Positions 26,330-31,759 of a stretch of DNA of 37,425 nt are shown here, piece after piece. The position numbers and the translations under genes were made by a program. Below the pieces are notes generated by a model. That model worked only from the letters and a program-made list of their open reading frames with translations, did not search any database and was not told where the DNA came from. The stretch spans positions 1 to 37,425 of the forward strand of contig CAUJHZ010000066.1 in NCBI GenBank assembly GCA_963205185.1. Direction: 5' to 3'. Each line of letters starts with the position of its first letter. The first letter of the stretch is position 1. The DNA comes from Planctomycetota bacterium. Its GTDB lineage: Bacteria > Planctomycetota > Phycisphaerae > Phycisphaerales > UBA5793.

Positions 26330-26923
26330 TCATTGGCGGTCCGGCGCGGCCCGGCGGCGCTGGACATAGTCGAGTACGACGGGGATGAATTCGTCATTGC
26401 GCAGACCCGCCAGCCGCGCCTCCGCCTCGGCCCGCTCGGCGGTGTAGCCGTCCTCGAGCATGCGCCAGGCCATCCACACCGCCCCAACGCGGTTGCCCGA
26501 GGCGCAGTGCACCAGCAGCGGCTTTTCGCTGGTCCGGATGATGCGCAGCGATTCATCGAGCGCCTCGTCGGTGAGTTGATCGGGCCCGCCCACCGGGACG
26601 TTTTCATATTCGATATCGAGGCGGTCGAGCTCGGCCGCCTCGTCAAAGCCGCGGTTCTCGCTCTCGCGGCGGAGATCGAGCACGGACTCGATGCCGGGAT
26701 AGCGCGCCGCGGCGGCCAGGTCGGCGCGCGACGGCTGGCCGCCGAGATAGACCTTCCCGTCCGCCAGCGCCATGTCATGCGCGCCCAGGCTCGCCGACTG
26801 CACGCCGTGATTCGCGGCAGCCGCAGCGTCTGCCCGCTCGCGGCTCGCGGAAGTCGTCTCGCATCCGACCAGGGACGCGGCAGCGACCGCAAGCAGGACG
26901 CATTCAACCAGAACGTGGCGCAT
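26330..26923 (-). CDS. Lipoprotein with tyrosine-phosphatase-like (DUF442-type) domain
   Basis: A 197-residue protein. The N-terminus is a lipoprotein signal peptide with lipobox SLVGC; Cys21 would be lipidated. The mature part has VYLGGQPSRADLAAAARYPGIESVLDLRRESE, then LLVHCASGNRVGAVWMAW. The Cys140-x4-Arg145 pocket and the Q-P-S motif are typical of the small phosphatase/sulfurtransferase-like DUF442 family. Its substrate is unknown. A location in the periplasmic space, attached to membrane, follows from the lipobox. Its start overlaps the queG stop by 20 bases, so the two are co-transcribed. The C-terminus ends in a basic RRRAAPDRQ tail. Confidence 0.8.
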   Translation of the reverse strand: MRHVLVECVLLAVAAASLVGCETTSASRERADAAAAANHGVQSASLGAHDMALADGKVYLGGQPSRADLAAAARYPGIESVLDLRRESENRGFDEAAELDRLDIEYENVPVGGPDQLTDEALDESLRIIRTSEKPLLVHCASGNRVGAVWMAWRMLEDGYTAERAEAEARLAGLRNDEFIPVVLDYVQRRRAAPDRQ

Positions 26924-28022
26924 CGTCGTGTTCCTCCCGGGATGAAGATTTCAACTTCTGCAGCACCTGCCGCGCCGTTTCGCGAACGACTTCGTGCTCA
27001 GCCGCGTCGGCGGCCAGTTGAGCGATTCTATTGAGCAGATCGGGATCGCGCCGCCGCACGAGGTAGTTGCCCGCGGCGATGAGGGCATTGCGCTTCATCA
27101 TCCACAGCTTGGCCCGCTTCATGGCCGAGCGCGTGAAGGCGGCGAGACGGTCGTCCTGCGACCAGTTCAGAATCTCGAGCAGGTCAAACCCGCCGCGCCG
27201 CGGGCGGTACGCCTCGTGCACCGGCGCCGCCAGCGTGCGCGGCGTATCGCCGTTGTGGGGGCAGACTTCCTGGCACACGTCGCAGCCGAAGATCCAGTCG
27301 CCTATTCCCGCGTGCCATCGCTCGTCGATCAGGCCGCGCAACTCGATCGTGTGGTAACTGATGCACTCCGTGGCGTCGAGCGACCAGGGCGTGAGCGCGC
27401 CGGTCGGGCAGGCGTCGAGGCAGCGCGTACACGAGCCGCAGTGGTCGTCGTATGGCTGTGAATTCGTTTCGAGCGGCAGGGTGGTGATGATCTCGCCCAG
27501 CAGCAGGTAACTGCCCACGCCGGGCTCGATGAGCATGGTGTTCTTGCCGACGTAGCCCAGCCCGGCGCGCCGGGCGTGCTCGCGCTCGAGCACGGGGGCG
27601 GTATCGACGCAGGCGACGAACTCATGTCCGTTGAATTCGCAGGCGAGCGCATCGCACAGCTCATGCAGCCGCCGCTTCATCACGCGGTGGTAGTCATCGC
27701 CGCGTGCGTAGCGCGCGATGCGGCCGGTGCGCCCGCGGGGCGCCTGCATCTCGGGTTCTGACGCCGCGTAACGGTCTGCCACGCAAATGACCGACTGGGC
27801 GCCGAGCAGCTTTTTCCGCGGATCGATGCGTTGAGCCAGATGCGATTCGAGGTACTCCATCTGCCCGTGCCGGCCGGCCTCGAGCCAGGCGATCAGCTCG
27901 CGGTGATGCTCGATCGTCTCGGCGGAAGCCACGCCGCTGAGTGCAAAGCCGAGTTCCGCGCACCGATCGAACACCCGCCTTGCAGCAACTCCGGCGGCGT
28001 GGTCCTCCATCACGGCGCTCAC
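26904..28022 (-). CDS. queG: Epoxyqueuosine reductase
   Basis: QueG reduces epoxyqueuosine to queuosine in the wobble base of tRNAs, using cobalamin and iron-sulfur clusters. The 372-residue protein has the N-terminal domain of the family (LGFALSGVASAETIEHH, AWLEAGRHGQMEYLE), the VDTAPVLEREHARRAGLGYVGKNTMLI segment, and the two 4Fe-4S motifs CGSCTRCLDACPTGA and CDVCQEVCP with a linking ECISYHTIELRG. A HEAT-like helix region ends the protein. The start is a GTG at 28022 that overlaps the stop of the FlgI-domain gene as GTGA; an ATG at 28010 is an alternative. It is in the middle of an operon-like run with overlapping genes. Confidence 0.95.
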   Translation of the reverse strand: MSAVMEDHAAGVAARRVFDRCAELGFALSGVASAETIEHHRELIAWLEAGRHGQMEYLESHLAQRIDPRKKLLGAQSVICVADRYAASEPEMQAPRGRTGRIARYARGDDYHRVMKRRLHELCDALACEFNGHEFVACVDTAPVLEREHARRAGLGYVGKNTMLIEPGVGSYLLLGEIITTLPLETNSQPYDDHCGSCTRCLDACPTGALTPWSLDATECISYHTIELRGLIDERWHAGIGDWIFGCDVCQEVCPHNGDTPRTLAAPVHEAYRPRRGGFDLLEILNWSQDDRLAAFTRSAMKRAKLWMMKRNALIAAGNYLVRRRDPDLLNRIAQLAADAAEHEVVRETARQVLQKLKSSSREEHDDAPRSG

Positions 28023-29896
28023 CGCTCGCGAATCGTGGATTCAGCCGGCGGCGCATCGGGATCCGGATCGAGGCGCGAGGGATCGCGCGTCGTTTCCGGC
28101 CGCTCTTCCGGCGCGGCGTTGCGGATGCTGTCGATCACCGCCTGCATGAGCGTATTGCGCTCGGGCACGAAGCGAACGTTCAGGCCGCGCTGCACTTCCG
28201 ATTCGTACAGCACGCGCACCGTTTCGCCGTAGGTCAGGCCCAGCGACGGGTCGAGGCTGTACTGGGACGGCCGGGCCCCCAGGAACGTGATGAAGCCGAT
28301 CAGATCCGAAGGCGGTTCGTATTCCACCGCCTCGAGCGATCCCTTCGTGCGATAGCGCACGCGCAATGGCTCGTCGCTGCCGTAGCGCACGATCTGCAGC
28401 CGATCCGAGAGCGCCTGCACGAGCACTTCATCCGCAAAGCCGTTGTCCGAGCCGAACACGACCAGCTGCGGCTTGTCCTGCAGCGTGGCATAGACCATCC
28501 GCTTCTCGGAAGGCACCGCGTAAACCTCGAATTCCTGCTGCGGATCGAGCGTCATGCGCTTCACCAGCGGGTCGCGCTGCTTGAGCAGGGCGTCGAATGT
28601 CGCTACGCGCACGTCAAACGATTCGTCGTTGAGCAGCTCGCGCAGCGCCAGGCTGATGCGCGGCGAAGCGGGCATGTCGCCCAGCAGGTTAATCGCATCC
28701 ACGCGCAGCGCGTTGTCGGTGTCGACCGCGAGTTCGACGAGGTGCGGCACGACGCGCGGATCGTCCAGCCGGGCGCCGGCGTTGAGCGCCGCCAGGCGGG
28801 GAATCACGTCCGGGCAGGTGTAGAGGTGTGAAAAGCCGTTGATCGCCAGTTCGCCCAGCGCCACCCAGCACCAGGTCACGGGAACAGCGTCAATCGGATT
28901 CTCCATGACCCACTGCGCGAGGAAGTTGGCTCGCGATTCGATGCCACCCTGGAAAATCTGCGTGTGCAGCATCGTCTCCACGAACACTTCCGAGTCGGCG
29001 TGGCGGCTGGGAGGCACGGTGATGAGAATCTGCTCCTCAGAGTGGCCGGCCACGGGGTCGGCTGTGGGCCGCGTCTGCGAGGGCTCCTGCGGGAAGCGCG
29101 AGTTGATCGCGTCGATGATGGCGCGGGCCCGGCCGAAGTTCGGCGTGCGCAGCTGCAGGATCAGGGGCATGTCGTCAGTCAGTACGCCGCCGTTGAGGAT
29201 GCGGGCGACGCGCCGATCGACGACGACGCCCGCGCTGCTGGGCTGGCCCTCCGGCGCGGAAGGATCCGGCAGGCCCCATTCGACGCCGCCCACGAGCGAG
29301 TTGCGATCGTCCGGGGCAAAGGGATTGATGAACAGATCGCCGTGCGCCTGCGCGACGGGCTTGACGCCCTGCACCGCGCCGGTGAATCCGCTGCTCAGGT
29401 TGGTGGTCCAGAGGCGGCCGCCCTCGAGGCTGGTGGTGCTCGAGCCCGGCGCCGCCGAGACCATGACGTCAAAGCGGGTGCCTTTGACCGCTCCGGCGGG
29501 AATCACGGCCTGCACAAGCACTGCCGCCGTGTTCTTGTCCTGGAGCAGTTTGGTCATGGTGATGCGCTGCTCGGTCTCGATCCGCGGGTCGGGCAGCAGC
29601 TTGGAGCCCTCGCGTTCGAGGTACGCCCGAATGGGCAGCGGCGTATCCGCCGAGCCGGTGCCGTCGAGCCCGACGACGACGCCGTAGCCCTGCACAAGCG
29701 AGCGGCCGTACCCGCGCAATTCGGCCTCGTAAAGGACCGTGCCGCGCAGGTAGCGCGGCAGCGGATTGGGAGTCAGTTCCGGGGTGGTGAGCTTCGGCGG
29801 CGGCTTGTCGTCGGAGCACGCGGGCGTGACGAGCACCGCTGCACCCATACCAAGCGCGAGCGACAGAACGCCGGAGAGAGAGAACTGATGAGCCAT
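28019..29896 (-). CDS. FlgI (flagellar P-ring)-domain lipoprotein with HEAT-like C-terminus
   Basis: A 625-residue protein. The signal peptide has a lipobox-like VTPAC with Cys27, so it is probably lipidated. Residues about 45-320 resemble FlgI, the P-ring subunit of the flagellar basal body: LVQGYGVVVGLDGTG, KNTAAVLVQAVIPAG, GTRFDVMVSA, SLEGGRLWTTNLS and VAQAHGDLFI correspond to the conserved P-ring segments. Canonical FlgI is about 365 residues. Here a region with ALGELAINGF and LAVDTDNALRVDAINLLGDM suggests HEAT-like repeats, followed by a beta-rich tail. No other flagellar gene is in the window, so a structural flagellar role is doubtful. The ATG at 29896 has GAGG 8 bases upstream. Its stop overlaps the queG start. 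Confidence 0.75.
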   Translation of the reverse strand: MAHQFSLSGVLSLALGMGAAVLVTPACSDDKPPPKLTTPELTPNPLPRYLRGTVLYEAELRGYGRSLVQGYGVVVGLDGTGSADTPLPIRAYLEREGSKLLPDPRIETEQRITMTKLLQDKNTAAVLVQAVIPAGAVKGTRFDVMVSAAPGSSTTSLEGGRLWTTNLSSGFTGAVQGVKPVAQAHGDLFINPFAPDDRNSLVGGVEWGLPDPSAPEGQPSSAGVVVDRRVARILNGGVLTDDMPLILQLRTPNFGRARAIIDAINSRFPQEPSQTRPTADPVAGHSEEQILITVPPSRHADSEVFVETMLHTQIFQGGIESRANFLAQWVMENPIDAVPVTWCWVALGELAINGFSHLYTCPDVIPRLAALNAGARLDDPRVVPHLVELAVDTDNALRVDAINLLGDMPASPRISLALRELLNDESFDVRVATFDALLKQRDPLVKRMTLDPQQEFEVYAVPSEKRMVYATLQDKPQLVVFGSDNGFADEVLVQALSDRLQIVRYGSDEPLRVRYRTKGSLEAVEYEPPSDLIGFITFLGARPSQYSLDPSLGLTYGETVRVLYESEVQRGLNVRFVPERNTLMQAVIDSIRNAAPEERPETTRDPSRLDPDPDAPPAESTIRER

Positions 29897-30094
29897 GGAT
29901 CTTCCTCGCACAAGGCAAGTCGGAGCAACTGGTTGGCAGGCCGCCGCCCCCCGGCCGCACCCGCCCAAACCCAGCGTCAAGCGTATGGCCGAACTCGCGG
30001 GGCGACCACAGCCGGGCCAAGGCAACCGCCCCGACGCGCGTGGTTTTGCAGCCGAAACCGCCGGCAGTTCGATACGCTCCTGCGAGAGTGCCAG

Positions 30095-31009
30095 ATGCAC
30101 GATAGTTCCTGGACCGGCTCAATCCGAGACTTCCTGACCTTCATCCGCGTGGAATGCGGCCTGGCGGCCAACACGCTCACCGCTTACTCAGCCGATCTCC
30201 GCGACCTCGAACAAGACCTGACGGCGTTGCAGCGCCCCAGCCTGGCGACCGTCGAGCCGCAGGATCTCGCCACCCACATCCGCAACCTCAAGACCGAGCG
30301 AGGCCTCTCGACCTCGAGCGTCTGCCGCCATCTGGCCACGACGCGCATGTTCTTCCGGTTCCTGCACGCCAACGGACGCATTGAGCGCAACCCTGCCGAG
30401 CTGCTTGAAACACCGACGCGCTGGCAGCGGCTGCCCGGCTGCCTTTCGCCGATCCAGATGAAGAAGCTCCTCGCGGCCCCGAACGAATCGCAGGGCCCGC
30501 TGTGGATTCGCGATCGCGCGCTGCTCGAACTTTTGTACGCCGCCGGCCTGCGCGCCAGCGAGGTGGTGCGGGTGCGCGTCCGCGATGTGCATGCAGCATT
30601 GGGCGTGGTGGATGTAATCGGCAAGGGCAACCGGCAGCGCCTGGTTCCGCTCGGAAAGCCCGCCCTGGCCGCGATTGCCGACTACCTCGACGCGCTGCGC
30701 CCGCTGCTTGCTGCGAAAGCGGCGGGCCGCGATGACGAGCGGCTTGTTCTCTCGCGCTCGGGCCGGCCGCTCGAGCGCATCGCCATCTGGCAGATCGTTC
30801 GCCGCCAGGCGCTGGCCGCCGGCTTGCGAAACGTGCACCCTCACATGCTGCGTCACAGTTTCGCGACGCACCTGGTCTCGGGCGGGGCGAATCTGCGCGT
30901 CGTGCAGGAACTGCTTGGCCATGCGGACATCAAAACCACGCAGACCTACACGCACGTGGACGCCAGCCGCCTGCGCGAAGTCCACGCGAAGTTCCATCCG
31001 CGCTCGTAG
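30095..31009 (+). CDS. xerD: Tyrosine recombinase XerD/XerC
   Basis: Site-specific recombinase that resolves chromosome dimers at dif during division. The 304-residue protein matches the usual length. The N-terminal SAM-like core-binding domain (FLTFIRVECGLAANTLTAYSADL) is followed by the catalytic domain with all expected residues: Arg153 (AAGLRASEV), Lys177 (GKGNRQR), His250 and Arg253 (HMLRHSFATH), His276 (LGHADIKTT) and the nucleophile Tyr285 (TQTYTHV). It is closer in pattern to XerD than to phage integrases, and no attachment repeats are seen, so it is most likely the housekeeping enzyme; XerC versus XerD is not certain. It diverges from the FlgI-domain gene with 198 bases between the starts. 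Confidence 0.93.
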   Translation: MHDSSWTGSIRDFLTFIRVECGLAANTLTAYSADLRDLEQDLTALQRPSLATVEPQDLATHIRNLKTERGLSTSSVCRHLATTRMFFRFLHANGRIERNPAELLETPTRWQRLPGCLSPIQMKKLLAAPNESQGPLWIRDRALLELLYAAGLRASEVVRVRVRDVHAALGVVDVIGKGNRQRLVPLGKPALAAIADYLDALRPLLAAKAAGRDDERLVLSRSGRPLERIAIWQIVRRQALAAGLRNVHPHMLRHSFATHLVSGGANLRVVQELLGHADIKTTQTYTHVDASRLREVHAKFHPRS

Positions 31010-31132: not shown

Positions 31133-31759
31133 TCAGGCGCGGCGGCGACGGCCACCGATGGCGAGCGAGCCGAGGCCGAGCAGGGCGAGGCTGCCGGGCG
31201 CGGGGATTTCGTAGAGCAGGACGGAGCAGAGCCATTCGCCGCGGCCCTGGAAGTTTTCGACTTCGGTGTCCTGCGCGTCAAAGCTGTCCCACGTCGTGTT
31301 GTAGGGGCCGATCACGACGAGGTACTCACCAGCGAGCAGGTTGATCTCGTTGGTGATGTTGCCCTGACGGGTCGTGCCGTTGAACGGATCGTTGGGCTGG
31401 GGCGCATCGCCGGCGGCGATGTAGGCGTCGAAGACGTCGCCCGAGTCGTAGTCGTCGTTGATGGCGAGGATCTGCAGGCCGTCACCCGTGTAGAGGGCGA
31501 GTTCGGTATCAGAGCCGAGATCGAACGAGCCGAAGCTGTCGAGGATCAGGCCGTAGCCGCTACCCTGCGTCACGTTGCGATCGAGCGTGAATCGCATGCC
31601 GAAAAGCACGTTGCCGTTGTTCTCAAAGAAGCCGGCGTCCTGAAGGGCAACACCAACCTGCAGCACGCCGCCGTTCGCGATCGGGAAATCGGCGAGAGCC
31701 GGAGTCGCAACCGCGGCAGTCAGTGCGGCGCCACACAAAAGGGTCTTGATCTGGTTCAT
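31133..31759 (-). CDS. Secreted protein with PEP-CTERM-like sorting tail
   Basis: A 208-residue exported protein. The signal peptide (MNQIKTLLCGAALTAAVATPALA) ends before Asp24. The middle is Gly/Asp-rich and lacks a recognised domain; DTELALYTGDGLQILAINDDYDSGD resembles pre-peptidase C-terminal or DVUA0089-like calcium-binding segments. The C-terminus has the tripartite sorting pattern: PAPG (in place of Pro-Glu-Pro), a hydrophobic SLALLGLGSLAIGG helix and a basic GRRRRA tail. Such tails are processed by exosortase or related sortases and are tied to exopolysaccharide export, which fits the nearby polysaccharide genes. GGAG lies 10 bases before the ATG. No exosortase gene is in the window. 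Confidence 0.8.
   Translation of the reverse strand: MNQIKTLLCGAALTAAVATPALADFPIANGGVLQVGVALQDAGFFENNGNVLFGMRFTLDRNVTQGSGYGLILDSFGSFDLGSDTELALYTGDGLQILAINDDYDSGDVFDAYIAAGDAPQPNDPFNGTTRQGNITNEINLLAGEYLVVIGPYNTTWDSFDAQDTEVENFQGRGEWLCSVLLYEIPAPGSLALLGLGSLAIGGRRRRA

Follow-up and report, generated by a model that had tools for sequence, protein, structure and literature searches.

The closest described relative of the protein discussed here is FlgI, the flagellar P-ring protein (PF02119; PDB 7cbl, 7bgl, 7nvg, 8z5n), which assembles into a 26-fold ring. In Salmonella FlgI, according to PMC8298488, the upper inner ring domain (IRU) covers residues 12–159, the outer ring domain (OR) residues 1–11 and 160–230, and the lower inner ring domain (IRL) residues 231–346. 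Two other systems are relevant: the HEAT-repeat proteins (PF13646, PF02985; alphaRep and the HEAT domains of epoxyqueuosine reductase in the PDB) and the SMC-ScpAB genes. The window, i.e., the whole stretch of planctomycete DNA that was analyzed, is the complete contig C66 (37,425 nt). It carries a lipoprotein gene whose family is named FlgI-HEAT in this text. FlgI-HEAT resembles FlgI in having IRU and OR domains, a signal sequence and probably a C-terminal IRL. Unlike FlgI, it is probably anchored through an N-terminal cysteine, is ~250 residues longer, has a probable HEAT insert, is encoded outside the flagellar operon and is kept in genomes without flagellar markers. It shares an alpha solenoid (mature residues 292–417) with HEAT-repeat proteins, but this solenoid lies within or beside a ring-protein fold and is exported. 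With the SMC-ScpAB genes it shares gene order, most carriers having FlgI-HEAT immediately in front of smc; unlike ScpA and ScpB, its product is an exported lipoprotein (signal peptide, FlgI and HEAT fold), neither a cytoplasmic kleisin nor a KITE protein.

The reading that we favor, with a probability of about 0.55, is that FlgI-HEAT is a P-ring paralog acting outside the flagellum, an envelope-anchored ring or scaffold with HEAT arms that would have a housekeeping role and possibly a tie to chromosome segregation. Judging from gene content, the family is not a part of the flagellum, because four carriers show none of the flagellar markers that were tried and because FlgI-HEAT is absent from the majority of the flagellated planctomycetes in the sample. 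The survey covered 294 genomes of the phylum Planctomycetota, searched with the family profile. Full-length relatives were found in 43 of them (361–702 bits; the copy of G242 is split across contigs), followed, after a clear gap, by canonical FlgI proteins at no more than 115 bits; such a recurrence is well above what chance would give. The carriers comprise all 15 genomes of the same order (own genome included), all seven other genomes of the same class and 21 genomes of further families; pieces of FlgI-HEAT are present in G031, G075 and G093, which belong to another family. FliF is found in 39 of the 43 carriers, the exceptions being G220, G127, G055 and G194, the last of which has canonical FlgI and Flg_bbr_C. 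Searches for canonical FlgI, FliF, FlhA and Flg_bbr_C found none of the four in G220, G127 and G302 (97, 99 and 97% complete, respectively; the G127 genome is a single contig), nor were the three markers searched in G055 (canonical FlgI, FliF and Flg_bbr_C; 84% complete) detected. In these four genomes the FlgI-HEAT frame is open and the cysteine is kept. Conversely, a full-length FlgI-HEAT is missing from 135 of the 174 genomes that have FliF, three of the 135 holding pieces. Note that G300 was left out of the marker-less carriers: FliF and FlhA are present (contigs C17, C18), canonical FlgI and Flg_bbr_C were not found, and the genome may encode part of a flagellar set or a different type III apparatus.

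FlgI matches two proteins in the genome of the window itself (4.55 Mb, 97% complete), the window protein (78 bits) and a canonical FlgI on contig C30 (165 bits, full profile). The latter is encoded within flgG-flgA-flgH-flgI-flgN-flgK, the surrounding open reading frames (ORFs) matching Flg_bb_rod/LlgE_F_G, ChapFlgA, FlgH, FlgI, FlgN and FlgK. FliF and FlhA are encoded on contig C76. The organism is very probably flagellated, as this canonical operon together with FliF and FlhA lies on other contigs. An earlier analysis of the window, the sequence-only reading, had described the gene as having no flagellar gene nearby and as standing without flagellar genes. The former is correct, as FliF, FlhA and Flg_bbr_C gave matches on other contigs of this genome and none on C66; the latter applies to C66 and not to the genome. 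The genome-wide search, which that reading had proposed, also established that the window gene is not the sole FlgI. Its suggestion that the protein departed from the flagellum for a place in the envelope gains support from the separate canonical FlgI, the marker-less carriers and the patchy presence among FliF genomes.

FlgI-HEAT is, on phylogenetic grounds, an old planctomycete family of single origin that is distinct from canonical FlgI. In a phylogeny built from the FlgI region, a single branch (support 100/99) divides 25 FlgI-HEAT rows from 22 canonical ones; two of the 27 FlgI-HEAT rows chosen were left out as the motif used for cutting was missing. Within FlgI-HEAT, the rows from the order and class of the window mostly stand apart from those of the other class-level group, as expected for old vertical descent. 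Among the matches listed from plasmid records (20 of 30), none spans more than 40% of the query, and a protein-query scan of genome contigs gave no match.

The most conserved genomic partner of the family is smc. Neighbors were clustered for 111 loci: the window, 80 named loci (the best 80 of 139), retrieved with patterns from the order of the window, and 30 stretches chosen for lineage spread. Removal of four copies with at least 95% identity left 107 loci, 105 of which are testable, the other two ending at a contig edge. In 95 of the 105, smc follows on the same strand at a distance of no more than 500 bp; among the remainder it is 2.1–2.8 kb downstream in two and absent in eight. All 102 SMC ORFs share the strand of FlgI-HEAT, with a median gap of 94 bp, and the five that were checked all pass the TIGR02168 cut-off. 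The runner-up same-strand neighbors are found downstream in 21 and upstream in 18 of the 107 loci. Independently, among 24 carriers where the place of smc is visible, inspection by eye showed adjacency in 19, a distance of 2.8 kb in G220, and no linkage in G000, G111, G167 and G274. The gap is 22 bp in G127, 97 bp in G302 and 37 bp in G055, all of which are marker-less carriers like G220. The stretch upstream of smc in 19 non-carriers has no relative of FlgI-HEAT (0/19; three carriers served as positive controls). In seven non-carrier loci (L205, L208, L210, L211, L213, L214, L218) a radical-SAM activating-like gene beside an anaerobic ribonucleotide reductase was seen by eye upstream of smc; smc may have other fixed neighbors in other lineages. 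The link is not obligatory, since it is lost in the family of the window and in G111, G167 and G274: the own smc is on contig C25, apart from FlgI-HEAT on C66, and the stretch of family member L171 (G298) contains no smc. The linkage points to expression, and perhaps also function, being coordinated with the cell cycle and with the segregation of chromosomes; it may reflect cell-cycle timing, a shared function or merely a trapped operon.

The domain organization of the window protein is that of a known fold family, of which it is a variant and not a new fold. Pfam FlgI (PF02119) matches residues 61–306 with profile positions 9–217 of 343 (E 2.1e-21; 76.7 bits, cut-off 25.3), which confirms the P-ring-like domain proposed from sequence, while the NCBIfam FlgI equivalog and subfamily models remain far from their cut-offs (67 bits vs 300 and 54 vs 557). 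The N-terminal part corresponds to IRU and OR, since it aligns to 17 canonical planctomycete FlgI sequences by hhalign with E 9e-27. The AlphaFold model (72-row alignment) has a mean pLDDT of 83.7 and a pTM of 0.78. For this model, Foldseek ranks FlgI chains from solved LP-ring structures highest, namely 7cbl_a (E 3.8e-13), 8z5n_4, 7bgl_a and 7nvg_r3. A second aligner places FlgI chains on mature residues 26–290 with Z 15.5–17.9 and an rmsd of 8–9 Å, a deviation that would fit an altered angle between domains. The proposed HEAT-like repeats, marginal in Pfam (HEAT_2, E 4e-6; 27.4 bits, 0.3 short of the 27.7 cut-off), are borne out by the model, in which full-length residues ~319–439 form eight helices with pLDDT ~95, and by HEAT chains of the PDB, which align to mature residues ~292–417 and are among the top structure matches.

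The domain that follows the solenoid gave a pLDDT of 86 when modeled separately. Structure re-alignment of 997 chains ranks residues 248–365 of FlgI, the IRL, in its top two places (Z 5.0, 85 residues aligned, rmsd 3.7–3.8), the next chain reaching Z 4.7 over just 44 residues; Foldseek with this domain found no match at E ≤ 0.001. By hhalign it aligns with the C-terminus of canonical FlgI at P 7.7e-4, whereas two mismatched controls gave 0.03 and 0.09. In the relative from G055, a single ORF has the HEAT repeats followed by a match to the tail of the FlgI profile (299–341), with E 3.1e-4 and a score under the cut-off. The HEAT solenoid probably interrupts an otherwise whole P-ring protomer at the passage from OR to IRL, the IRL assignment being the weak last step; an insertion is favored because individually weak structure and profile matches agree and keep the order of FlgI. 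The repeats had earlier been called fused to the P-ring-like domain, which is probably wrong given their apparent position ahead of the FlgI C-terminal domain. Conservation within the family is highest in IRU and OR, the mean frequency of the commonest residue being 0.62 in the N-terminal ring domain and 0.52 in the C-terminal one. The rod-facing residues Lys63 and Lys95 of FlgI, described in PMC8298488, were tried as a discriminator and are not decisive, canonical planctomycete FlgI often lacking them as well. Of 72 FlgI-HEAT sequences none has lysine at the Lys95 position, and of 18 canonical planctomycete FlgI sequences only some do; the Lys63 position is variable in both.

The gene is read on the minus strand from an ATG at 29896 to a stop codon ending at 28019, so that the coordinates of the sequence-only reading, the start, the stop and the length of 625 aa check out. 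The protein is exported and its N-terminal cysteine is conserved in nearly all relatives. Both signal peptide and cysteine could be placed in 35 of the 37 relatives obtained by genome searches and in 76 of 80 named relatives, 25 and 57 of which, respectively, satisfy a PROSITE PS51257-like lipobox pattern. The lipobox claimed earlier for the window protein holds in part: signal peptide and Cys27 are there, and the T-P-A that precedes the cysteine, with its proline at -2, breaks the pattern. The window gene is under purifying selection, with dN/dS of 0.065 relative to congener L055 (dS 0.26) and 0.14 relative to L057 (dS ~1); two more comparisons gave 0.23 and 0.29, with dS likewise high.

In the envelope-scaffold reading, the lipidated cysteine would anchor FlgI-HEAT at a membrane, probably the outer one, OR would contact peptidoglycan and IRU and IRL would pack the protein into a ring or arc, as their counterparts do in the FlgI structure, while the HEAT arm would dock a partner. 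The task of the assembly would be housekeeping organization of the envelope. Both ring formation and a tie to chromosome segregation are put forward conditionally. Several observations weigh against this scheme. Ring assembly is an extrapolation from the FlgI structure, the match of the C-terminal domain to FlgI is weak, and the lipobox of the window protein is atypical. The smc link is lost in the own genome, genus and family and in G111, G167 and G274, and an exported protein cannot contact SMC directly. Finally, the presence of FliF in 39 of 43 carriers leaves room for an additional flagellar role in those genomes.

Extra rings and lipoproteins are added to the flagellar motor in other bacteria, and the prevalence of FliF among carriers would suit an accessory motor ring, for example a lipoprotein disk around the planctomycete P ring. 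This explanation is already strained and very improbable in view of the four carriers devoid of the markers tried, the 135 FliF genomes without a full-length copy and the lack of a flagellar neighbor in the window. An envelope lipoprotein whose P-ring fold serves as a binding module, monomeric or in a small complex, with OR holding peptidoglycan and HEAT a partner and no ring being formed, is a less strained alternative that we nevertheless consider rather unlikely. Many HEAT proteins are plain binders, and the variable insertions, the HEAT domain inside the fold and the lower conservation of the C-terminal domain would all be compatible with such a module. The strongest conservation is found, however, in IRU and OR, and inner-ring domains pack the subunits in the known P ring (PMC8298488), which speaks against a mere binding module.

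How the smc linkage should be read is a separate matter, on which opinion is close to balanced. The proposal that it is an operon relic, the gene being trapped before an important one with which it shares transcription and not function, is only slightly less probable than its opposite. The short median gap, the common strand and the unlinked copies in the family of the window, L095, G111, G167 and G274 agree with a relic; against it, the link persists where the best other same-strand neighbors remain in just 18 and 21 of 107 loci, and smc of the 19 non-carriers has no relative upstream. A far bolder proposal, which we regard as improbable, is that a P-ring-derived, lipid-anchored and HEAT-armed ring of bacteria without recognizable FtsZ is coupled to SMC segregation through shared expression and a putative inner-membrane partner, so that a flagellar bushing would have been recast as a part of the division or nucleoid-envelope machinery. 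No ftsZ passed the cut-off in the 294 genomes of the phylum, with 10 weak matches. The absence of FtsZ was considered as the cause of the FlgI-HEAT distribution and rejected, carriers and non-carriers alike being without ftsZ above cut-off; this common background thus provides no evidence for a division role. A connection to the crateriform or nuclear-pore-like structures of planctomycetes was considered as well and not retained.

Neither a HEAT-bearing FlgI nor its link to smc was found described in the open-access papers searched, as judged by titles and the openings of abstracts, nor in the available parts of PMC12758564, PMC10632474 and PMC8567305. The main text of the Planctopirus limnophila essentiality study, as far as available, does not mention flagell-, SMC or P-ring. 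What surprises is that one family unites a P-ring fold, a probable HEAT insert and a putative lipid anchor with an smc neighborhood and with retention across a class even where flagella are missing. P-ring proteins are usually regarded as purely flagellar, and FlgI-HEAT proteins are picked up by the family model named "flagellar P-ring". The family is core to an entire bacterial class; in it a flagellar ring fold has a second life that persists where flagellar genes have gone, mostly in tight linkage with smc. FlgI-HEAT should not be scored as a flagellar gene in metagenomes. FlgI-HEAT is a concrete candidate for new envelope machinery in planctomycetes, where no FtsZ passed the cut-off.

The features of the locus are collected in the following table. 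The queG and phosphatase neighbors named in the sequence-only reading are both present, the latter as a dual-specificity-phosphatase-like gene. The queG context on which that reading relied is peculiar to the genus of the window, the widespread partner being smc (95/105).

Table. Features of the FlgI-HEAT locus (positions in the window).
Feature	Position	Strand	Basis or remark
FlgI-HEAT lipoprotein coding sequence, 625 aa, stop included	28019..29896	-	ORF, Pfam, dN/dS
Shine-Dalgarno-like AGGAAGA immediately 5' of ATG	29900..29906	-	read from sequence
Signal peptide and anchor Cys27, residues 1–27 (...LVTPAC)	29816..29896	-	sequence and relatives
FlgI-like part, IRU and OR, residues ~49–316	28949..29752	-	Pfam, hhalign, PDB chains, Foldseek
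HEAT solenoid, eight helices, ~four repeats, residues ~317–441	28574..28948	-	Pfam, AlphaFold, PDB chains
C-terminal beta-rich domain, probably FlgI IRL, residues ~442–582	28151..28573	-	model, structure and profile comparison
Acidic Pro-rich tail, residues ~583–625	28022..28150	-	pLDDT drop to 44–59
queG, 4-bp overlap with FlgI-HEAT stop	26904..28022	-	neighbor in the genus of the window only
Dual-specificity-phosphatase-like gene, downstream of queG	26330-26923
PEP-CTERM protein, short way upstream of FlgI-HEAT	31133-31759		relatives in L062, L063, L064
Divergent ORF, second half tyrosine recombinase-like (XerC/XerD type, by eye), upstream of FlgI-HEAT	28964-31009	+	relatives in L062, L063, L064

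The same 4-bp overlap with queG is found in the congeners L062, L063 and L064. Solved structures of the queG family carry a HEAT-like domain, and those chains match the FlgI-HEAT solenoid at Z ~10; the adjacency and the shared HEAT-like fold are probably a coincidence of a common fold. The phosphatase-like protein has a signal-like N-terminus and a lipobox-like LVGC and may be a periplasmic lipoprotein phosphatase.

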